Virus record (IMG/VR): IMGVR_UViG_3300030106_003644
Coordinates: 1-22,833 of that record
Reading direction: 5' to 3' (one strand)
From: a virus
Length of the DNA stretch: 22,833 bases
Shown: one piece after another, positions 2,077 to 22,047 of the stretch
Layout of the letters: every line of letters begins with the position of its first letter
Numbering within the stretch: the first letter of the stretch is position 1
Translations under genes and position numbers: made by a program
Notes under the pieces: model-generated
What the model saw: only the letters and a program-made list of their open reading frames with translations
Told to the model about the DNA's origin: nothing
The model's database searches: none

Positions 2077-2820
2077 CTAATCCCAACTAAAAGTTTCTTG
2101 TTCAACAGTATCATCAGTTACTTCAACTGCACCTAGTTCTTTTGCCTTAGCAACACTTGGACTATCATCTAAATCATCTATGCCTGCTATATCCTGTAAT
2201 GGATGTTCGTCTTGAAAGATTGGCTTTCCTTGTTTTGCCTTATCAAACTCGTGTTTCCAGTCTGTCAACCATTGTTTTTCTACGTCATCTCCAAAATGTT
2301 TACCAATCAAACCACTACCAAGTATAGTACTAAAGTTATTGAAACCCATGCCCATTAATATTCTTTCATCTACTGTGCTACCAGAGTTTTGTACTGGTTG
2401 CGTAGGTGTTGGTTGACTTACAGGAGCAGGTGCGTCAGATTTTTTTATTGCCCACGTTTCGTTTCCGTCATCTCCCTTGTAAGTCTGGACTAGAAAGTTT
2501 TCTTTTTCTTGGCCATTCTTATCAATGTAAATCTCATGTTTCAATTGCACAGAAACATAATCTCCCTGTGAAAACTTCTCTCCTGTATATGGATTGAAGC
2601 CACCTATATCTGTATTCCATGAGCCTTTCAAGTTCCATATTTTACTTGCATTGTCCTCGCTAAATGCAATGCCATACCCATACTTATCAAAAGTTCTTGA
2701 GATAGTTCCATTGACATACTCAAAGACTACTCTCTTTGTAGGATTGCCTTTTTTATCTTGGCCACTATTTAATCTTTTTACTTTTGGTGGCCATGTTAGG
2801 TCTGGTGATTGTAATTCCAT
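2077..2820 (-). CDS. Unknown protein, possible ssDNA-binding protein
   Basis: 247 residues; family not recognised. Three parts are visible. The N-terminal part (about 1-125) is rich in beta-type residues (VVFEYVNGTISRTF, DYVSVQLKHEIYI). A Pro/Gln/Thr linker (about 130-150) follows. The C-terminal part ends in a strongly acidic tail with aromatics (about 210-247, ending EQETFSWD). A beta-rich core with a flexible linker and acidic aromatic tail is the general plan of SSB and T7 gp2.5-type proteins, and its neighbours are a resolvase and a nuclease. No OB-fold signature was proven. Start has AAGGAG 9 bases upstream, overlapping the end of the regulator gene ahead. Confidence 0.75.
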   Translation of the reverse strand: MELQSPDLTWPPKVKRLNSGQDKKGNPTKRVVFEYVNGTISRTFDKYGYGIAFSEDNASKIWNLKGSWNTDIGGFNPYTGEKFSQGDYVSVQLKHEIYIDKNGQEKENFLVQTYKGDDGNETWAIKKSDAPAPVSQPTPTQPVQNSGSTVDERILMGMGFNNFSTILGSGLIGKHFGDDVEKQWLTDWKHEFDKAKQGKPIFQDEHPLQDIAGIDDLDDSPSVAKAKELGAVEVTDDTVEQETFSWD

Positions 2821-2822
2821 AT

Positions 2823-3041
2823 TTATTCTCCTTGTTCAAATGGATTTGTATTTGTTTTTTTATCTATGTTTTTTTCGTATAACTTATCTATAATCTGTGC
2901 TTTGTCATAAGTAGGATGAGACTCTCCTCTTACCCATCTCCTAATGGTCTCGTGTGCTCTGACACCAGTAGCATCTGCTAGTTCTGATGTTCCTATCTTA
3001 TCTTTCAAAGCGATTATTTTTTTTGTTGTTTCAGTTATCAT
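2823..3041 (-). CDS. Helix-turn-helix DNA-binding regulator
   Basis: 72 residues. Residues 17-40 (GTSELADATGVRAHETIRRW, then VRGE) fit a helix-turn-helix of the Cro/CI or XRE type: turn Gly at 26, recognition helix around 29-37, and the typical W.RGES.P ending. The rest is a short charged tail. The size fits a Cro-like or excisionase-like repressor. It has AAAGGAG upstream. No divergent partner repressor is present. Its binding sites may include the palindromes or GGGAAA sites near the leftward promoters or the array near 10.3-10.4 kb, but the sequence cannot show which. Confidence 0.8.
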   Translation of the reverse strand: MITETTKKIIALKDKIGTSELADATGVRAHETIRRWVRGESHPTYDKAQIIDKLYEKNIDKKTNTNPFEQGE

Positions 3042-4424: not shown

Positions 4425-4467
4425 AACATAACAACGTACTCTCTCTTAAGAGAGTAGTATGTTATGT
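4425..4467 (-). terminator. Long hairpin after the primase-helicase gene
   Basis: Outer arms AACATAACA (4425-4433) and TGTTATGTT pair over 9 bp; after a 3x3 internal loop an inner 8-bp stem (TACTCTCT with AGAGAGTA) closes on a CTTA loop. It begins 5 bases after the primase stop at 4472. Downstream sequence on the leftward strand is U-rich but not a clean T-run (TTATCTATAATTTATC). It may be a weak terminator, an mRNA-stabilising 3' hairpin or an operator for P1. Confidence 0.45.
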
Positions 4468-4471
4468 TCTA

Positions 4472-6505
4472 TCAAATATCATTTTCATTAATGTAATACT
4501 GTCCACCAGAATTTCTAATTTTATTTCTTGCTTCAAGTCTTTGTAATGTTACTCTCAATGTTGGTAGAGGTATGTCTGTTTCCTCTGATAGTTCCTCTCT
4601 GTTCATTGGTCTTGTTTTCAATTGATACAAAATTTTCTCTGGATTAGTTTGTTTTGCTGACAGGTTACTGCTCTTGTTCAAATCTCCAAAGTCATAACTT
4701 ATACTGACAGTGTTGTCCTCATCATCATTTACAAATGTAACTTCATATCCAACTGGTTTATGTACACCACCTGTATTGTTACCTTTTCTGTGATACATAC
4801 CAATTATGCTAGTGTTTCCATCTTGGTCATCATCTTTCTCTGCTGACCAAATGTTCCTAGATAGGTTGGTAAAGAACACACTACCATAAGCGTGAGTATC
4901 TGAGCCAGACTTAGTAATATGAGTAATACCAAGTGACGAAACACCTAAACTTCTAACTGCTTGATGGTAAGTTCTCGCACTCTCTGGACTGTTAGTATCC
5001 TCGTTACCACTAGCAACTACACTATCAATACAGATTAATTCTATGTTGTGCTTAGAAATATCTCTTTGTATCTCCTCTAAATGATTTACTAAAGGTGCAT
5101 CAAATCTCCTGTAAATTACAGGATGTAATAAATCTTTTTCTGTAAGACCTGCACCTCTAAGTAATCCATACATAATAGAATAAAACTCTTGCTCACTTGC
5201 TTCCCAGTCACAGAACATAACTGCACTCGGCTCTCTGATATAAAGGTTAGGTAATAAATTTTTCCCAGAAGCCTTTGAGAGTAATGTTGCTATTGCAATA
5301 GTAGATTTCCCAGTACCACCTGCTCCCATGATTAAGTTACTTTGGTTTTCTTTGACATATGGTTTAGCACTCCATCCATCTTGCGTGATTTCTGGCTTGT
5401 AAGTTCTCATGTCATGTCCTACTGATGATGTTTCTAAACTCTTATGTATCAGAATAAAAGTATTAGACAGTATAGATTTCCAATTTCTCTCTGCGTCTAT
5501 TGATGTAAGTTCTTTCCTTAAACTATCAACACTACTAGACGATAGCATATTGATACGTCTTGGTGCAGTAATTGGTGTACCCTCATCCTCTATCTCTATC
5601 TGACAACTTAGACTATCTCCTCGTTTTGTAATAGAAGTACAGTTTATTACTATACCTTGTTCTGGATATCTAAACACTCTCCTGTTTGCTATTGAAACTT
5701 CTACGATAGGTGTTTCTATTTCTTGGTTTTCATAATTCTCAAACGTCTGATACCTACCAGAATAAATACTATCTATCACTTGCATCAACTCAACTACTTC
5801 CATAGGAGGTGTACAATTACTCCTGTATTGTTCCATCAATGCTATCGCAACATCTTTACTGATGTTCTTACTTCTAAAATACCCTGCCAGTCTACTCGCC
5901 ATATCGTTTCTTTGACCCTCTCCTACCCCTCTAAGAGCATCCGACACCCATGTAGGTTGTTTGCTACCATTCATACTTTCAATGAAGTTCTGTGAACGTT
6001 TCTGTTTTACTTTATTCTGTTGAAATTCTGTAATCTCTGACCATTTAAGTATCGAAACTTCTTTACTGCTTGTATATTCTTTGCCATTTACAATGCTTGG
6101 AGGTGCTAAAACGTACCCACCATCTGCTCGGACATCAACTTTGTCTACAAGACCTGCAGTTTGTGATAAGTTTTCGTCATACTCAATATAAAAATGGTAA
6201 CCTCTTGGTGTTTTTACATACCTAGTCTTTGGTATTTCTAATCCTACCTCTTTCAGATTGGCAACTGCTGACTTATCATCTAAATCTATTACATTTATTC
6301 CAGATATTTTACCTGTTGCTATTCCAACATTTGCTTTTGGATATAGTTTGAACAGTTTTTCTACCATCTCGTAGTCATTGGTTGCTGACTTGCTACCATT
6401 TGGTTGAAGTGTGCTATCTTTTATTGGTACTTTGCTATTTGGCGATATTGCTAAGACACTAAAACCCTCTGCAATATACTGTTGTGCCATCTCTAAGTTA
6501 TTCAT
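4472..6505 (-). CDS. Primase-polymerase/helicase fusion protein
   Basis: 677 residues from ATG 6505, chosen for AAGGAG at 6511-6516; the longer frame to 6544 lacks a ribosome site and runs through a predicted pseudoknot. Residues 1-160 fit a bifunctional primase-polymerase (Prim-Pol) domain: VIDLDD (catalytic D74, D76) and VRADGGYVLAPPSI (125-138). Residues about 190-250 (GEGQRNDMASRLAGYF, ending DSIYSG) resemble a primase C-terminal domain. Residues 388-600 form a RecA-like ATPase with Walker A GAGGTGKST (394-402) and Walker B ICIDS (D494), like RepA-type hexameric helicases. Residues 624-672 look like a winged helix (TLRVTLQRLEARNKI). It should prime and unwind phage DNA at the fork. All main catalytic motifs seem intact. 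Confidence 0.9.
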   Translation of the reverse strand: MNNLEMAQQYIAEGFSVLAISPNSKVPIKDSTLQPNGSKSATNDYEMVEKLFKLYPKANVGIATGKISGINVIDLDDKSAVANLKEVGLEIPKTRYVKTPRGYHFYIEYDENLSQTAGLVDKVDVRADGGYVLAPPSIVNGKEYTSSKEVSILKWSEITEFQQNKVKQKRSQNFIESMNGSKQPTWVSDALRGVGEGQRNDMASRLAGYFRSKNISKDVAIALMEQYRSNCTPPMEVVELMQVIDSIYSGRYQTFENYENQEIETPIVEVSIANRRVFRYPEQGIVINCTSITKRGDSLSCQIEIEDEGTPITAPRRINMLSSSSVDSLRKELTSIDAERNWKSILSNTFILIHKSLETSSVGHDMRTYKPEITQDGWSAKPYVKENQSNLIMGAGGTGKSTIAIATLLSKASGKNLLPNLYIREPSAVMFCDWEASEQEFYSIMYGLLRGAGLTEKDLLHPVIYRRFDAPLVNHLEEIQRDISKHNIELICIDSVVASGNEDTNSPESARTYHQAVRSLGVSSLGITHITKSGSDTHAYGSVFFTNLSRNIWSAEKDDDQDGNTSIIGMYHRKGNNTGGVHKPVGYEVTFVNDDEDNTVSISYDFGDLNKSSNLSAKQTNPEKILYQLKTRPMNREELSEETDIPLPTLRVTLQRLEARNKIRNSGGQYYINENDI

Positions 6506-6517
6506 TTTATCTCCTTG

Positions 6518-6577
6518 CTTATTCATTTGATTAGGTATGGGCATGGACTAAATGAATAAGAAAAAAAATCCATGCCC
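6518..6577 (-). promoter_or_regulatory. Candidate H-type RNA pseudoknot in the primase leader
   Basis: In the leftward mRNA, stem 1 pairs GGGCAUGGA (6577-6569) with UCCAUGCCC (6547-6539), 9 bp. Stem 2 pairs CUUAUUCAUUU (6560-6550) with AAAUGAAUAAG (6528-6518), 11 bp. The strands alternate, so the two stems form an H-type pseudoknot with loops of 8 (all U), 2 and 10 bases. Its 3' end is one base before the Shine-Dalgarno (6516-6511). All pairs are Watson-Crick. The likely role is control of primase translation; a ligand or protein is unknown. Confidence 0.65.
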
Positions 6578-10077: not shown

Positions 10078-10301
10078 ATTATTTATATGGGTAATAAAAG
10101 CGTGTTATTTTTATACTGTTATGGTGTCGATTTATTGGGATATCGTGGCATTATCACAAGCAACATTAATAATTATTTTAAGTGTTATATTTAACTTATT
10201 TTTAGTGTTTTTTTAGTGTTATAGTTAGACCGCCAATACCTGTGCCGTTACTGTTGTATATATATGTACCCTATTAGAGTGCTGAACTGTTTTGTAGTAT
10301 T

Positions 10302-10437
10302 TATAACAGTTATATAACAGGTGTTATAAGTGTTATAAAACAAGTGTTATAACTGTTATATAACAGTCCTAAAAGTGTTATATAACACCCCCTATATATA
10401 TATATATATATATAAATTATATTGTTATAACGTAACA
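10302..10437. repeat. GTGTTATA repeat and palindrome array
   Basis: GTGTTATA starts at 10321, 10330, 10344 and 10375, with two more at 10182 and 10216. The related TATAACAG occurs at 10302 and 10313. Two perfect 14-bp palindromes are CTGTTATATAACAG (10353-10366) and GTGTTATATAACAC (10375-10388). A degenerate palindrome TGTTATAACGTAACA is at 10423-10437. Some neighbours are 9 or 11 bases apart. The array lies between diverging operons, upstream of the terminase genes. It could be operators, iterons of an origin, or stacked extended -10-like elements. Confidence 0.75.
10393..10414. repeat. TA dinucleotide run
   Basis: Eleven consecutive TA units lie between the palindromes and the last degenerate palindrome. 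Such DNA melts easily and would suit an unwinding element of an origin or an open promoter region. It could also vary in length between genomes or be affected by assembly. Confidence 0.8.
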
Positions 10438-10506
10438 CTTATTGTTTAAGATAAGTGTTACTACTAATGCTTATATTAAAAAGAAAATTAAAAATAAAAG
10501 AAAGTG

Positions 10507-10522: not shown

Positions 10523-11098
10523 ATGGCAAAAAAACGTAGTGTAGTAGCAAGAACACCAGCAGAAAAATTTAGAGATAACATATTGATTGGTTATCCTGAA
10601 TGGCCTACATGGTCTAGGAAGCTTAGGCGAATATTTGTTTCCTTGCCGTCATATGGTGTTGGTAAAGAAGCGTTAGAGTCTATGTGTGAAGACTTTGAGT
10701 GGGATTTTGAAAAGACCAGTAAGTTGATAGATGGTAATGCTACTTTTACTAAAGCAGTAAATGATTTCATAGAAGATGGTTACAGGTACAGGACAGCTAT
10801 ACGTTATCCTAATTCTAAAAACCCATTACCGTTTGAGATAAAATGGAGCAAGTTACAGTTAGTGTATATGATGGAATCTGGTATCACCTCGTTTATCAAA
10901 GCAGAATTAGGTAAAATATCTGCTGTTGAAAACAAGTTGATAGAAAAGTCTGGCTTGTTAGAGATAGAACCATTGGTAAATGATTGGCAAAGTGATGGTA
11001 GTCACCAGCAAGCTGAGAAAAAAGTTGCTGTGCAAAACGTAGATATATCTGGTGAGTCTAGTTTATTTGATTTAGAAGCAAGCTTGAACGGAAAATAA
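10523..11098 (+). CDS. Putative terminase small subunit
   Basis: 191 residues from ATG 10523 (MAKKRSVVARTPAEKFRDNI). A longer frame from TTG 10442 adds a Lys/Asn-rich stretch without protein character and was not used. No small-terminase signature was recognised; the call rests on the position directly before the large terminase, with stop and start adjacent, and on size. A DNA-binding role is plausible from the basic N-terminus and from helix-rich residues 25-80, which include GKEALESMCEDFEWDFEKTS. The C-terminal part is acidic and may contact the large subunit. The start has no clear ribosome site but lies at the expected transcription start. Confidence 0.65.
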   Translation: MAKKRSVVARTPAEKFRDNILIGYPEWPTWSRKLRRIFVSLPSYGVGKEALESMCEDFEWDFEKTSKLIDGNATFTKAVNDFIEDGYRYRTAIRYPNSKNPLPFEIKWSKLQLVYMMESGITSFIKAELGKISAVENKLIEKSGLLEIEPLVNDWQSDGSHQQAEKKVAVQNVDISGESSLFDLEASLNGK

Positions 11099-12613
11099 AT
11101 GTCATATCAATACACACCATCTCCTTGGCAGCGTAAGTTTCATAATTCAGAAAGCAGGATAAAGGTTGTATGGGCAGGTCGTAGAGCAGGTAAAGGTAGA
11201 GCTGTACTTACTGAGCTAATGCTGGCCATAACGCAGGCTTCAAAGACTCCGTTTCTAGCAGACAAAGAAATGGCAGAAGCTGCTAACCTACCAGTAGGAT
11301 ATGACTTGACTAACACACTAGAACCTGCAATCCATATATGGGTAGTTGCACCTAACTTTGCACAGAGCAGACAAGCATGGAACGAACTAAAACAATTTAT
11401 ACCACCAGAACTTGTAGTCAAAAGAAAACAAGGACAAGGTGGTGGTCGTGGTGACGGATGGAGAGAAGATGCAAAGTCTGTATGGCTATATCTAAAAAGT
11501 CCTAACCTAGTAAGACGAGATGTCTATATTGAAATAAAATCTGCTGACGACCCTGAATCTCTACAGACTGCTGGGCCTGACTTTATTTGGATTACAGAGT
11601 CACAAGATATAAAAGAAGCTGCATGGAATAAACTAAGACCTATGCTTAACTCTGCTGGTAGACTAGGTAAAGGTTGTGTAGAAGGCATACCACCATTCAA
11701 AAGGTCTCATTGGTTTTCTAAACTTTTTAAATGGTCACAAGAAAATCCTAGCCAAGATTACGAATCCTTTCATGCAACAAGCTTTGATAACGTTTTCCTA
11801 TCACAAAAACAAAAAGAAGCTATCAAAGACGAAAAAGCAACTATGCCAGAAATTGTTTGGGATAGAATGTACATGGCTAAACAACCAGATGGTGGAGGTG
11901 GTTTCTTCAGACCTAGCAAAATACAAGAAGCTGCTATTGGAAAAGAAATATTGATGCCAGATTCTAGCAGAAGATATGTTGCTGGATTAGACTTGGGTAA
12001 GAAACAAGACTATACTGTATTTATAGTAAAGGATGCAGCTAGTAGAAAATCTGTATATGCTTTAGAAATGTCTGGTAGTGATTGGGTTAGTCAAATAGAA
12101 ACTATTAGTTCTGAAATAAATAGATGGAAAATAGGTGATATTAGAGTTGACTCAACTGGTTTAGGAGATGTAGTGTTTGACCACTTACTATCTTCTGGAT
12201 TACCAGTAACACCATTTAAATTTAGTGCACAAAGTAAATATCAATTATTCCAAAATTACTACATTGCACTAGAAAATGGTACTGTACATTTCCCAGAAAG
12301 TTGGGATACACTAAAAAGACAACTAGAAGATATAAGTATTAGACCTAGTGGAAATGGTTCATATGTGTTTTATAATGAATCAAGTGAGCATGATGATTGG
12401 GTTGATGCAGAGCTGTTAGCATTAATGGCTAGCGACCCACCAGGTTATGATGATGGTGAATATAAATATTTAGGAGCTATAAGTAGAATGAGACCTATAA
12501 GACCTACAGACTCTAGGAAACCGTCACGATTTATGCAAATGAGAAGACAACAAAAGACAAAAGAAAAATTACAATACTTAGAAGAAAACGAATTAATTAC
12601 TACAGAAATATAG
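11099..12613 (+). CDS. terL: Terminase large subunit (packaging ATPase and nuclease)
   Basis: 504 residues, the normal size. It translocates and cuts phage DNA at the portal. The N-terminal ATPase has a Walker A-like KVVWAGRRAGKGRA (22-35, K32) and Walker B DFIWITE (161-167, E167 as the catalytic carboxylate). The C-terminal RNase H-like nuclease has D298 (AGLDLGKKQDYTV), D351 (RVDSTGLGD) and D432/D433/D436 (HDDWVDAELL), which suit the three metal-binding acids. The Walker A has GKG instead of the usual GKS/T, an atypical P-loop found in some terminases. The ATG immediately follows the previous stop. Family assignment is strong. Confidence 0.93.
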   Translation: MSYQYTPSPWQRKFHNSESRIKVVWAGRRAGKGRAVLTELMLAITQASKTPFLADKEMAEAANLPVGYDLTNTLEPAIHIWVVAPNFAQSRQAWNELKQFIPPELVVKRKQGQGGGRGDGWREDAKSVWLYLKSPNLVRRDVYIEIKSADDPESLQTAGPDFIWITESQDIKEAAWNKLRPMLNSAGRLGKGCVEGIPPFKRSHWFSKLFKWSQENPSQDYESFHATSFDNVFLSQKQKEAIKDEKATMPEIVWDRMYMAKQPDGGGGFFRPSKIQEAAIGKEILMPDSSRRYVAGLDLGKKQDYTVFIVKDAASRKSVYALEMSGSDWVSQIETISSEINRWKIGDIRVDSTGLGDVVFDHLLSSGLPVTPFKFSAQSKYQLFQNYYIALENGTVHFPESWDTLKRQLEDISIRPSGNGSYVFYNESSEHDDWVDAELLALMASDPPGYDDGEYKYLGAISRMRPIRPTDSRKPSRFMQMRRQQKTKEKLQYLEENELITTEI

Positions 12614-17124: not shown

Positions 17125-20100
17125 ATGGTATCACCTTTTAATAGAGACAGAACCCCTTTTTCTCGTTCAAGAGAAGATTATAATACAAGAGCAAGAAGAC
17201 TTCGCAAGGAATATCAAGACCGTTTAAGAGAACAAGAAAGATTAGTTATAGAAGCTCAAGCAAGAGAAAGAGCTTTGGTAGCTGAACAAAATATTTTAAA
17301 TCCTCAACAACCTGTTGTTCCTTTGAATCAACCTGATTCTCCACCAAAACCATTTCCAGTTGTAGAACCTCCACAAGAAACAGCAGAGCCTATAAGTTAT
17401 TCTGGATTTGCATCTGGTGTTAGAGAAAACTTAGCAAATGCAGGATTGAGTGCTTTAGAATTTATAGAACCAGGAATTAACACAGCAGTAGGTATAGCTG
17501 CAAGATTTGTAAGTCCTGGAGAAACTGAGTTTGATAAACAACTTAAAATAGTAGAAGAAGAACGTGAAGCAGCTGGTAAACAAAGAGGACTTAGGGGATT
17601 TTTTGCAACAGGAACGGAAGCAGCTAGACGTGCAGCTCCTTTACAAAGAGGTGCAGAATATGGAGCTTCTCTAGCAACTAGTGTTATACCAGATGGTTTG
17701 TTTGGAATTGATTCAGATGAAGTTAGGAAAAAAAGAAATCAATATTTTAAAGAAGCTACTGGTAAAGAATGGACTCTTTTAAATTCTTTTATTGACCCAG
17801 TAGAAGATTTAAATGCAACTAAAAGAGCCTATAAAGAAACAGACCAACCTACATATGCAAAAGGAACATTAGAGTTTATATTTGACCCTTTAAATGTATT
17901 GCCAGGCATAGGAATAGCATCAGATATAAAAACAGGGTCTAAGGCTTTAAAAGGTTTAGCTAGGCTTTCTATAAAAACACCTGTTCAAGCAGTTACTAAA
18001 ACAGGTAAAATAGTTGCACAACCTAAAAAAGTTGCAGAAAAAACAAAACAAATTGCTAGTGATATAAAAAGTTATTATGATGATGTTGTAACTTATAATA
18101 CAAACCCTAGTGATTTATTGCGACAACGTATAGAAGAAAAAGGTGCAGACTTAGTAAAGGGTGGAGCTGCAATAGAATATAACACAGCAGCAGCAGAAGG
18201 AAGATTAGTTTCTAGAGTGCCAGGTGTTTATGATAATGTTATTCCTCTTATTGATGGTTATGACCACTTTGATAACATAACAGCAAATGTTATTTCAAAT
18301 CCAGATTTTGCAAAAGGATTATCCAGACCTTTGACAAGAGAACAATTTGATGCACAACTTGGTACATATAAAGAAACTGTAAAATACTCAGAAGATTTTT
18401 TTAGTGACGATAATATTATAAAAAGACGTGATAGATTTAGAGAAAAATTAGTAAAGAAAAATCAAGAAACTTTAAAACAAAATCAAGCAGCTAAGTTACA
18501 AGAGGGAATAAGAAAAACTTTTGACGGTATAGATAAAATAGGATTATCTTTTATAACAACTCCTTTTCGTACAATAGTAAATTCTATTGACCCTCAGATA
18601 TTAGCAAAAGTTGGAGATGCAACAGATTTAAAAACTAAATATTTAGAACACGCTCGTAACAAAGCTAATGCTTTGAATGCAGCTGGAATTAGTGTAAAAA
18701 ATACTATTACTAAATCTGGTGATTCTAAACGTGTTTTTAAAGACCAGATACAAGATTTTACAATTACACCTAATGAAGCAGATGCTGCAAGAATATATAG
18801 AGTATTAAAAGACCAACATAAAAATTCAGGATATAATGTAGCAGATTTAAATAAAACAATTGACCAAGGTACAAATGCTTTTTTAGAGTCAGATATAATT
18901 AGTGCTGTAGTAGATGTAAGAAAAGCTGTTAGAGAAGATATGGTAACTCCCATAGGAAAGCAACCAGTAGATGATTTAATATTTGATTTGAAACCAATGT
19001 TTAAAGTTGAAGGTAGTGAATACTTTAATTTTAAAACAGGAGCAAGAACAGAAAAAGGTAACTATGTTATTCAGAGAGCAAAAGCAGAATTTGAAAAAGC
19101 TAAATTATTAGCTGAATATGGTAACCCAATTGTAGCTGGTGGTAAAGTTCTATCAGGAAAAGCTTTAGCAGATTTTTATTTATCAGAAAAAGCTTATGCT
19201 TCAAGATATGTTTTAAATAAAACAGGTAATAAAGCATTTTCTAATAATAGTTTAGAAAAATCATTTAACAAAAATAGAAAATATTTAGACCCAGATAATA
19301 TATTTGAAGATATTATTAGTGGCGAAAGAAATATTATATATGCTAACCCAGAAGATGCTTTGAGTTTATCTTTTATTGGAGCTTATAATCAGTTGTCAGA
19401 TTCAGTTTTAAAATATGATTTGATTGATTTTTTTAATAAAAGTAAAGCAGCAAGAACTGAATATGGTGTATCAGTTGTTGAAAAAATAACATCACCTCAA
19501 AGTGGTTTTCAACTACAAGCAGATACTTTACCTGGTTATAAAATTGGAAACAAAGAAATTACATTAAAGAAAACAAAACCAAGCAATAGAAATGTTCCAT
19601 TAGAACAAACAGAAAGTCAAAAACTTTGGGATGGTTTGTTATTTCGTACAGAAAAAGATGCTGCAAAATTTGCAAATGATTTTGATTTAATTATTAATGC
19701 AAGTAAAGATGTTGTAGGTATGCCTGCTTTGATAAAAAATCAAATAAAAACAGGTACAGGTGTTTTAGGAGCACCTATATCTAAGGCAGGTGATATAACA
19801 AAAATTTTTCGTTTAGCTGGTACTGGTATTGATTTAGGTCTAACTGCAATATATGCACCAATAGTATTTGGTTTAGGTTCAGCAAAAATTTTAGGTGGTA
19901 TTGCAGCAGACAATCCTAAACTTATAACAGAAGGAAAAAATTTATATAAAGGTATTGCTAGAGCTACTGTTGATAGTATTGTTTCTCTTATAAATCCAGA
20001 TAGAGTATTAGCAAAAACTTATTCTCCTGCTAGACAAAAAACTTTAGCACTTATGAATAGAAATAATATGGGATTGGGGAGATTACAAGTAGAAGCATAT

Positions 20101-22047
20101 GAAGCAGTATCATCTAGCACAACTAAATGGGGTGGACAAGTAACCGAACCTATTAATTTTCCAGGAAAAACTAAATTAGGCAAATTGTTAAGAAAATTTG
20201 AAGGTAGTTGGTCTACATTTATAGATGAAATAAAAATTTCTACTTTTGAAGCATTGACATCAGGCTTAGATGAAATAGAAGATGCTATAAAAATAAGAGA
20301 AATAGCAGATTTTATAGAAAAAGGAACAGGAACATTAAGTTCTGAAGCAGTTGGTTTATCTAGTTTTCAAAGAAAAATAGAATCAACATTTATGTTTTTC
20401 TCTCCTAGGATGACTCGTTCTATATTGGGATTACTTAGTGATTCACTTACTAGAGGTGGAGAACGAGGTGCATTAGCAAGACAAGGAGCAATAGGAGCAT
20501 GGACAAGTTTGCAAGCTTATACTTGGGGAATAGGACAAGCTTTAGGACAAGATGTAAACTTAGACCCAACTCAACCACATTACTTACAAATAAAAATAGG
20601 TAATGATTGGGTAGGTCCTGGTTCACAAATAATTTCTTTGCCTAGGGCAGTTTATAGAATGGCAGCTGGACCAGATGATGTAGATGCTGTGTATAGAGAA
20701 ATAAATCAAGAGAATGAAGTTACAGACCAACCTTGGTTTCAATTTTTGCGAAGTAGAGCATTTACTGCACCAGCTGGTTCTATGATGTTAGAAGCAATAA
20801 GTAACGAAAATTATTTTGGTGAACCTTATGAAGGGTTGACTGATTTTGGAGAAGCACAATTAAAAAGATTTTTTCCTTTTTGGATGCAAGATGCAGTAGC
20901 AGGTGACCCTTATAAAACAGGATTTAGAGGAATAGCAGCTGAATTTGCAGGATTAAGAACAAGGCCACTTACTACTTATGAAAGAAGGCGTGACTTGCGT
21001 GACCAAGCAGTAACAGAAATGTTTCCAGAATTTTCAAGTTATTTAGATTTAGACCCAACAAGAAAAAAATTATTTAATGCTGAGTTAGAAAAAGAATTAA
21101 GTGATAAAATTTCAGCAGCAATATTAAGTGATTTAAAAGCAACTGATGAATTAATACAAATTGATAGACAAAATAAAGGTGGTAATTCTTCTCAATTAGA
21201 TGATTTTTATGAAATATTAGAAACAACTAGAGATGAAAAAGCAGAAAAAGTAGCAGAAACTTTGAATACTTATATATCAAGTGTTGCTCAATCTCCAGCA
21301 GATTTAAGAGCTTCATTGAATATAATAAATGCTGAATACTCATCTAAATACAAAGATATATATGAAGAAGGTGGTAAGTATTCTGATGCACATAATTATA
21401 TAAAACAATTAGAAAGTATAAATGATACTGAAAAAATAGAAGATATATGGATTAGTTCTTACTTAGAAAATGTTTTGTATAATTCAGAATGGGAAAAACA
21501 AACAGAACAAGGTATATCTTTTTATGATTATGACGGTAAAGCAGAAGCAGAAGCTTCTTGGATTAATCAATATGGTAATGATGCCTATGAATATATTCAA
21601 GAGTATTTAGTTGCAGGTAAAAATACTTCTCCTATAATACAAGAATTATATGATGCTAGAGAAAGGTTTTCTTTTTATTGGGATGGTGCAAAAGAAGATG
21701 CTATAAACTTTACAGCAAATAAATTAGGAAGACTTAAGTCAGAAGTTTCTCAATTATATAATGCTTACAGAACAGGTACGGTATCAGAAAAAGAAGTATT
21801 AAAAGAATCTGAGATAATAAAAGAAGTTACAAGTTATATTGCAAAATCTCGTAAAATTATGAGAGAGAATAATCCAGCATTAGATGGATTTTTATATAGA
21901 TGGGGGTATACTACTACCTTGGCAAACCCTCAAAATGATAGCCTTGAAGCTCAAACTTTATGGAGAAATAAAAGCCCTATATCATTGAACCAACCAGGAA
22001 ATTTGTATGACCAATATGCCACAATGGCAGAAAATGTTGTACAATAA
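17125..22047 (+). CDS. Giant virion protein, probably ejected into the host
   Basis: 1,640 residues, the longest gene here. The N-terminus (1-60) is highly charged and coiled-coil-like, then Pro-rich (65-90). Apolar segments occur at about 890-930 (LGLTAIYAPIVFGLGSAKIL). Residues about 1024-1250 include FEGSWSTFIDEIK, then DPTQPHYLQIKIGNDWVGPG (1147-1166) and FLRSRAFTAPAG. These recall the C-terminal part of large polyvalent phage proteins, which carry a DP....F..I+.G.....L.G..... pattern and are thought to be packaged and ejected; recalled, not searched. No protease, lysozyme or polymerase motif was found. Large size, apolar parts and position resemble T7-like ejection proteins in function only. 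Its ATG follows the previous stop directly. Confidence 0.8.
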   Translation: MVSPFNRDRTPFSRSREDYNTRARRLRKEYQDRLREQERLVIEAQARERALVAEQNILNPQQPVVPLNQPDSPPKPFPVVEPPQETAEPISYSGFASGVRENLANAGLSALEFIEPGINTAVGIAARFVSPGETEFDKQLKIVEEEREAAGKQRGLRGFFATGTEAARRAAPLQRGAEYGASLATSVIPDGLFGIDSDEVRKKRNQYFKEATGKEWTLLNSFIDPVEDLNATKRAYKETDQPTYAKGTLEFIFDPLNVLPGIGIASDIKTGSKALKGLARLSIKTPVQAVTKTGKIVAQPKKVAEKTKQIASDIKSYYDDVVTYNTNPSDLLRQRIEEKGADLVKGGAAIEYNTAAAEGRLVSRVPGVYDNVIPLIDGYDHFDNITANVISNPDFAKGLSRPLTREQFDAQLGTYKETVKYSEDFFSDDNIIKRRDRFREKLVKKNQETLKQNQAAKLQEGIRKTFDGIDKIGLSFITTPFRTIVNSIDPQILAKVGDATDLKTKYLEHARNKANALNAAGISVKNTITKSGDSKRVFKDQIQDFTITPNEADAARIYRVLKDQHKNSGYNVADLNKTIDQGTNAFLESDIISAVVDVRKAVREDMVTPIGKQPVDDLIFDLKPMFKVEGSEYFNFKTGARTEKGNYVIQRAKAEFEKAKLLAEYGNPIVAGGKVLSGKALADFYLSEKAYASRYVLNKTGNKAFSNNSLEKSFNKNRKYLDPDNIFEDIISGERNIIYANPEDALSLSFIGAYNQLSDSVLKYDLIDFFNKSKAARTEYGVSVVEKITSPQSGFQLQADTLPGYKIGNKEITLKKTKPSNRNVPLEQTESQKLWDGLLFRTEKDAAKFANDFDLIINASKDVVGMPALIKNQIKTGTGVLGAPISKAGDITKIFRLAGTGIDLGLTAIYAPIVFGLGSAKILGGIAADNPKLITEGKNLYKGIARATVDSIVSLINPDRVLAKTYSPARQKTLALMNRNNMGLGRLQVEAYEAVSSSTTKWGGQVTEPINFPGKTKLGKLLRKFEGSWSTFIDEIKISTFEALTSGLDEIEDAIKIREIADFIEKGTGTLSSEAVGLSSFQRKIESTFMFFSPRMTRSILGLLSDSLTRGGERGALARQGAIGAWTSLQAYTWGIGQALGQDVNLDPTQPHYLQIKIGNDWVGPGSQIISLPRAVYRMAAGPDDVDAVYREINQENEVTDQPWFQFLRSRAFTAPAGSMMLEAISNENYFGEPYEGLTDFGEAQLKRFFPFWMQDAVAGDPYKTGFRGIAAEFAGLRTRPLTTYERRRDLRDQAVTEMFPEFSSYLDLDPTRKKLFNAELEKELSDKISAAILSDLKATDELIQIDRQNKGGNSSQLDDFYEILETTRDEKAEKVAETLNTYISSVAQSPADLRASLNIINAEYSSKYKDIYEEGGKYSDAHNYIKQLESINDTEKIEDIWISSYLENVLYNSEWEKQTEQGISFYDYDGKAEAEASWINQYGNDAYEYIQEYLVAGKNTSPIIQELYDARERFSFYWDGAKEDAINFTANKLGRLKSEVSQLYNAYRTGTVSEKEVLKESEIIKEVTSYIAKSRKIMRENNPALDGFLYRWGYTTTLANPQNDSLEAQTLWRNKSPISLNQPGNLYDQYATMAENVVQ

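Follow-up and report, generated by a model that had tools for sequence, protein, structure and literature searches.

What is the role of a dense array of short repeats between the two diverging operons of a virus genome? We examined this question in a 22,833-base stretch (positions 1 to 22,833) of the 24,560-base virus record IMGVR_UViG_3300030106_003644, hereafter the window. Here, leftward genes, including those for a Prim-Pol primase-helicase and a 72-amino acid (aa) helix-turn-helix (HTH) protein, diverge at about 10.3 kb from rightward genes, namely those for a putative small terminase subunit (TerS) and the terminase large subunit (TerL), followed by structural-type genes. An initial annotation had described the repeats as a multisite operator, a replication-initiator binding array, or both, with the HTH protein and the primase-helicase as the candidate initiators. 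Our evidence ends at the same roles and candidates, but the arrays vary in sequence among relatives, and that annotation lacked a 54-base-pair (bp) core, the helical spacing of the relatives' arrays and a stem-loop at the Prim-Pol 3′ end. We tentatively read the repeats as iterons of a replication-origin and control hub in a tailed-phage lineage, which the HTH protein would read and which would serve the Prim-Pol helicase; we place this proposal close to an even balance.

The repeat array keeps its place and changes its sequence

The main iteron array spans positions 10302 to 10388 and contains, within 87 bases, nine perfect copies of GTGTTATA/CTGTTATA (core motif TATAACA / TGTTATA) that point in either direction and start at 10302(-), 10313(-), 10321(+), 10330(+), 10344(+), 10353(+), 10359(-), 10375(+) and 10381(-). 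One-mismatch copies start at 10334(-) and 10422(+), the latter being TTGTTATA (10422 to 10429) within an AT tract. Two overlapping iterons form the perfect 14-bp palindrome CTGTTATATAACAG (10353 to 10366), and a second perfect 14-bp palindrome, GTGTTATATAACAC, lies at 10375 to 10388. Outlying plus-strand iterons of repeat family D4 were found left of the core, at 10182 to 10189 and 10216 to 10223. The nine copies, the two palindromes and the two nearby single copies of the initial annotation were all recovered, and the repeats exceed shuffled expectation: sites with at most one mismatch numbered 56 in the window, compared with 33.7 ± 6.2 after shuffling (0 of 100 shuffles reached 56), and the top 7-mer between the core and the TerS start occurred eight times, compared with a shuffle mean of 3.1 (0 of 300 reached 8).

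A TerL search of viral contigs yielded 42 loci. When 35 loci were scanned upstream of TerL, the window's sites were kept in four near-identical ones (L005-L008), while 31 had none, several of them having little upstream sequence. Relatives with the same gene order carry an array at the same place with another repeat sequence, in at least eight versions. The initial annotation had looked to such relatives for the repeats; the array is indeed retained in them, but the repeat sequence is not. We then tested each locus for its own 7-mer array in the interval from the core end to the TerS start, using 300 shuffles and 25 loci, which included the window and some near-duplicates. The array was significant in 22 of these 25 loci, with 0 of 300 shuffles reaching the observed count in 21 and 1 of 300 in L024. 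The array types were TATAACA, AGTAACA, AGTGACA, TGTGACA, CGTGACA, TGCAACA, GGACAC, TTGGACA and TGGGACA, in which ACA is constant and the preceding bases are variable (summarised as NGTGACA and NNGGACA).

Spacing was also compared across the relatives, as the initial annotation had suggested. Same-strand site gaps below 40 bp were mostly 10-12 bp (54 of 84, with another 12 at 20-21 bp) in a count whose pattern was loosened by hand for some lineages, but the window itself has gaps of 9-14 bp. Five loci (L013, L014, L015, L016 and L030) share nearly the same site order, positions, spacing and orientations, whereas the base preceding GTGACA is A, T or C; in these loci, some ten sites have changed together.

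Arrays also occur outside the terminase family of the window. In L169 (genome G023) and its sister L196, a CGTTACA array precedes TerL, with a cluster of five sites in L169 and up to seven within 200 bp in L196. Since these two loci have neither a TerS homologue nor a core, the array is independent of TerS. Left of the CGTTACA array, GTGAA-N-TTCAC palindromes form a separate array with a spacing of about 30 bp (L169, 12008-12210; L196, reverse complement, 17370-17600). As a separate observation, hairpins of a C-run and a G-run with TTAA-like centres, flanked by the local iteron, were seen in or beside the main arrays of L017 (5480), L018 (1260), L025 (810), L027 (681), L035 (7061) and L169 (12539).

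A 54-bp core co-occurs with the terminase genes

The core (10232 to 10285, plus strand) has the form GCC(G/A)ATAC, a variable middle, ATGTACCC, N5 and GAGTGCTGA, and its length is near-constant. A strict pattern detected this 54-base element in 23 of 36 rows. Among the 13 negative rows, L011, L022, L023, L037, L038 and L040 start past the expected place of the core, L025 was positive with relaxed matching, and L009, L042, L035 and L036 carry diverged forms by eye; L039 is doubtful, and L046 has a distant TerL. The core was absent from the two genomes with another TerL, L169 and L196, at up to three mismatches in one search and up to two per half in another. Because the core is missing where TerL differs and TerS has no homologue, while an array is still present there, the occurrence of the core tracks the terminase genes and that of the array is independent of them.

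Conservation of the core sets in abruptly at base 1. The contigs L028 and L033 begin exactly at this base, and L006 is 98.8% identical to the window from 10232 rightward with no adjoining match leftward. Such a boundary would be expected of a cut end or of a preferred exchange point, and assembly breaks at strain junctions could be an alternative source of the contig starts. The near-complete 37,967-base contig of L020 breaks 103 bp left of the core and the L035 contig breaks elsewhere, so a DNA end at the core is unproven; the G016 contig likewise has no end near the core. We consider the core, a candidate terminase cut or recognition element, to be separate from the array, to go with the terminase and probably to mark the packaging cut.

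Several other features were noted. Tandem repeats of about 10 bp lie left of the core in L032 (about 2290-2450; CTTACCG-like) and L039 (1525-1595; GCCAG-like), with three TGTACATT repeats on this side in L009 and L042. The ends of the G016 contig (L109 1-755 and L110 6417-7171) form a 755-base direct repeat of 90.6% identity, as if two strains had been joined. L106, whose contig starts with a core-like string, was unrelated by tblastn and was dropped. An RNA or a tRNA-derived attachment site was rejected as an explanation of the core, as it has no Rfam match, contains no tRNA and does not fold.

The core, its contig boundaries and the TerS gene directly downstream of the array (10523 to 11098, plus strand) fit our first idea, a lambda-like packaging site in which the array would hold cosB- or pac-like TerS sites and the core would be the cut site. 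In the lambda-like cos regions treated in PMC4669245, cosN is kept while cosB and the TerS recognition helix vary. The cos sites of lambda, 21 and N15, as covered there, resemble our locus in having a kept cut-like core beside changing repeats, with the terminase genes downstream, but the repeats studied here persist in genomes without a TerS homologue. TerS was named from its position and has a predicted helix-turn-helix fold. It matched no named family at an expect value (E) of 0.001, Pfam, PHROG and PDB sequence searches all leaving it without a name, and its model had no fold match at E 0.001; the weak fold rows were winged-helix regulators in the PDB and, in a viral library, a mixture including several labelled small terminase subunit.

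TerS variation partly agrees with the iterons. Iteron base -2 can be fully predicted from TerS column 113, and base -1 from each of columns 8, 95 and 100, compared with 0 of 228 variable TerL columns; the TerS tree also groups L030 with lineages of the same site type, in contrast to the TerL tree. The predicted recognition helix at residues 62-70, a first guess made by eye, was rejected as the reader because its partial r with iteron type was -0.10 and because L010 and L011 differ there despite a common iteron. Columns 8, 110 and 113 track the iterons better than this helix, but the maximum over all windows in the partial Mantel test had p 0.15. L039 was unusable for blind testing of the TerS rule, as it has a simple AT repeat downstream of its doubtful core. 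The agreement could also arise if a neighbouring array were merely carried along with the TerS gene. The recognition-helix and Mantel results, the TerS-less arrays of L169 and L196 and an array-motif site about 6 kb away from the terminase make a packaging role of the array improbable.

A possible second site at the end of the Prim-Pol gene

Searching for the array motif elsewhere in the sequence revealed this distant site, a stem-loop at the 3′ end of the Prim-Pol gene (4425 to 4468; DNA fold -13.3 kcal/mol, z -5.9). The 24.5-kb record has no other TTAA-centred hairpin whose arms are six or longer. A TTAA-centred hairpin within 75 bp of the Prim-Pol stop was present in all seven Prim-Pol-bearing sequences, including G016, G013, G011, G023 and L196; in G016 it lies within the last codons of the Prim-Pol frame. 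Separately, the near-identical phages of the window (4434-4459) and L114 (G021) carry the stem-loop centre in exactly opposite orientations.

We compared the hairpins with each genome's own array 7-mer in six genomes, using an untuned rule and 720 label permutations. Own sites near the hairpin summed to 14, a value reached by 14 of 720 permutations; earlier motifs that were looser and tuned to each genome had given a better-looking match. Against random positions of the same genome, the match was reached at 0.9% in the window, 2% in G006, 1.4% in G023 and 1.2% in L196. The second site of G006 (L112 7401-7470) lies directly upstream of the gene for a 247-aa protein family that is described below. 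These data are consistent with a two-site origin, in which one HTH protein would read both the hub iterons and the stem-loop, the sites would change together and the hub would also carry the packaging cut element; as a whole, we regard this scheme as possible but doubtful.

The HTH protein is the most likely reader of the sites

Two leftward proteins could bind the array. The HTH protein (2823 to 3041, minus strand) matches Pfam HTH_3 at E 1e-4, slightly below the gathering score. The Prim-Pol / AAA_25 primase-helicase (4472 to 6544, minus strand; Pfam PF09250, PF08708 and PF13481) has a winged-helix-like C-terminal end with a weak match to PF25213 (E 1.2e-4, below the gathering score). The recognition helix of the HTH protein does not vary within the pair G011 and G013 (NGTGACA) or within the pair G023 and L196 (CGTTACA), and otherwise it is specific to the iteron type. 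In the helicase winged helix, by contrast, G011 departs from G013 and almost matches L196, despite the different sites of G011 and L196. As the HTH helix tracks these iteron pairs and the helicase winged helix does not, the HTH protein is favoured, on few sequences. The arrays without TerS and the second site likewise favour a left-arm protein. To judge from these comparisons, the 72-aa HTH protein is most likely the array reader and is our preferred candidate.

The array as origin, operator or both

The 50-bp stability minimum of the window falls in a (TA)n tract at 10393 to 10443, which is a candidate DNA unwinding element. With nearest-neighbour stacking energies, and among sequences of very different length, the array-adjacent interval contained the sequence-wide least stable 50-bp stretch in 5 of 14 sequences (including the window); in 13 of 14, it held a stretch that ranked among the 0.6% of lowest stability. 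Cumulative GC skew also has its minimum at 10.0-10.5 kb. The initial annotation had pointed to skew around 10.3 kb as a check; the minimum is there, but it cannot be separated from a transcription effect because the operons diverge at the same point.

The melting minimum and the primase-linked stem-loop favour an origin, and the location between divergent operons favours an operator; the array can have both roles. If it were an operator only, the HTH protein would act as a Cro/CI-like repressor of the divergent operons and, through the second site, of its own operon, with replication starting elsewhere. The sites between the operons fit this view, as do the position of the G006 second site immediately before the 247-aa-family gene and the small DNA-binding proteins near the second site (HTH in five genomes; in G006, a 50-aa open reading frame (ORF) that looks ribbon-helix-helix-like by eye). 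However, an operator needs neither a melting minimum at the array nor a stem-loop at the primase gene end, and sigma-70-like sites in the region showed no excess (7 versus 9.5 expected). We consider an exclusive operator unlikely, while an operator role in addition to the origin role is probable.

Under the hub reading, the order from left to right would be the 54-bp core, about ten sites of 7-8 bp, the easily melted AT-rich tract and the terminase operon. A phage DNA-binding protein, most likely the HTH protein, whose gene lies downstream of Prim-Pol, would cover the array; the Prim-Pol helicase would be loaded, the AT tract melted and priming started, so that replication would begin at the array. 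The Prim-Pol 3′ stem-loop, with the same or nearly the same sites, may take part, perhaps as a priming or loading site. Sitting between the divergent operons, the array-binding protein would probably also set the transcription of both.

Several observations weigh against this hub. No significant array was found in L032, L033 and L035 in the 25-locus shuffle test, and the spacing of the window's array is not strictly helical. In the window stem-loop, CATAACA, present in both arms, is one mismatch off the array site; when only exact sites near the hairpins were counted, the sum of 5 was reached by 42 of 720 permutations, and, judged against random positions of the same genome, the match was weak in G016 (30%), G013 (16%) and G011 (12%). 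Intergenic DNA is AT-rich in any case. The HTH sequences are too few to prove covariation, and G006 (L010) has an array but no HTH homologue and a different primase-helicase; the ribbon-helix-helix-like ORF lies beside its second site.

Gene content of the window and its relatives

Other leftward genes of the window encode a RusA resolvase (967-1404) and the 247-aa protein with an acidic tail (2077 to 2820, minus strand), which had no match in Pfam and PHROG searches and which we infer to be SSB-like (single-stranded DNA-binding). TerL (11099 to 12613, plus strand) was identified by database searches of the window proteins. All six long genomes encode a primase-helicase, the 247-aa family and TerL (in G023 at E 9e-4). 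The HTH protein was found in five of the six and in L196, and TerS in five of the six. G006 retains the core and the array but differs in its replication module, where the Prim-Pol is replaced by a separate helicase and a primase-like ORF that shows a zinc-finger pattern by eye (L112 4639-6602); the G006 TerL is 92% identical to that of the window. In G023 and L196, the Prim-Pol and the HTH protein are those of the family, and TerL is very distant. The 1640-aa protein of the window (17125-22047) has as its counterpart two adjacent ORFs in G006 and in G013.

Among isolates, no relative was found for TerS or the portal-like protein, and the TerL and Prim-Pol matches were distant only. A TerL profile run against a genome collection gave 209 pattern hits and no relative, and hence no prophage and no host. 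In other pattern searches, most hits outside the TerL family were estimated to be at chance level for a collection of that size and were not used. A narrow literature check found no paper on this phage group. These searches bear on a further set of explanations, namely that the repeats serve as arm sites for an integrase, in partition or as binding sites of a host factor. The attP and parS sites also pair multi-site arrays with a conserved core. However, no integrase or ParA/ParB was found among the ten window proteins scanned per library search, no prophage was seen in the genome collection, and the site sequence varies between close relatives, unlike a host-factor site. We consider these explanations very improbable.

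Discussion

The proposed hub has partial counterparts in known replicons. Satellite phage P4 has a second site, crr, and its alpha protein carries an SF3 helicase. Our locus is P4-like in its many short repeats, in a primase-helicase with a winged-helix-like C-terminal end and in a possible second site of the same repeats, which is clear in the window (one mismatch), G006, G023 and L196 and weak in G011, G013 and G016. As described in PMC4234260, the P4 alpha protein binds its repeats via the winged helix. Alpha has a Toprim primase, whereas the present family has Prim-Pol PF09250 and its repeats are probably read by an HTH protein that is separate from the primase-helicase.

In plasmid pRN1 and phage BIP-1, a stem-loop likewise lies 3′ of the Prim-Pol gene, and the figure 7 legend of PMC4234260 describes the motif recognised near the stem-loop as not yet identified. 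The Prim-Pol with its winged-helix-like end and 3′ stem-loop is shared with both replicons, and the pRN1 operon also contains a small repressor gene. Unlike in pRN1 and BIP-1, the window helicase is AAA_25, with no SF3 family at E 0.001 in Pfam. The pRN1 stem-loop measures about 100 bp, compared with 44 here, and, according to PMC4234260, the pRN1 origin has no reported iteron structure, whereas an array is present here. RSF1010 oriV, in the same source's account, combines RepC iterons, the RepA helicase, the RepB′ primase and the ssiA/ssiB stem-loops. The likeness lies in the iterons, the primase-linked stem-loops and a separate small iteron-binding protein, the last being proposed here. Our system differs in that primase and helicase are fused, the stem-loop is about 6 kb from the array, and the core and terminase genes stand beside the array.

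Genome-specific sites that form the array and, in some genomes, also flank the stem-loop provide a concrete candidate motif for Prim-Pol replicons. The natural series of same-place arrays with different sites is suited to questions of how a protein and ten sites change together. If the two-site origin is true, each of the sister phages sharing a cell would respond to its own initiator alone, and replication, late-gene transcription and packaging would be coupled within about 300 bp.
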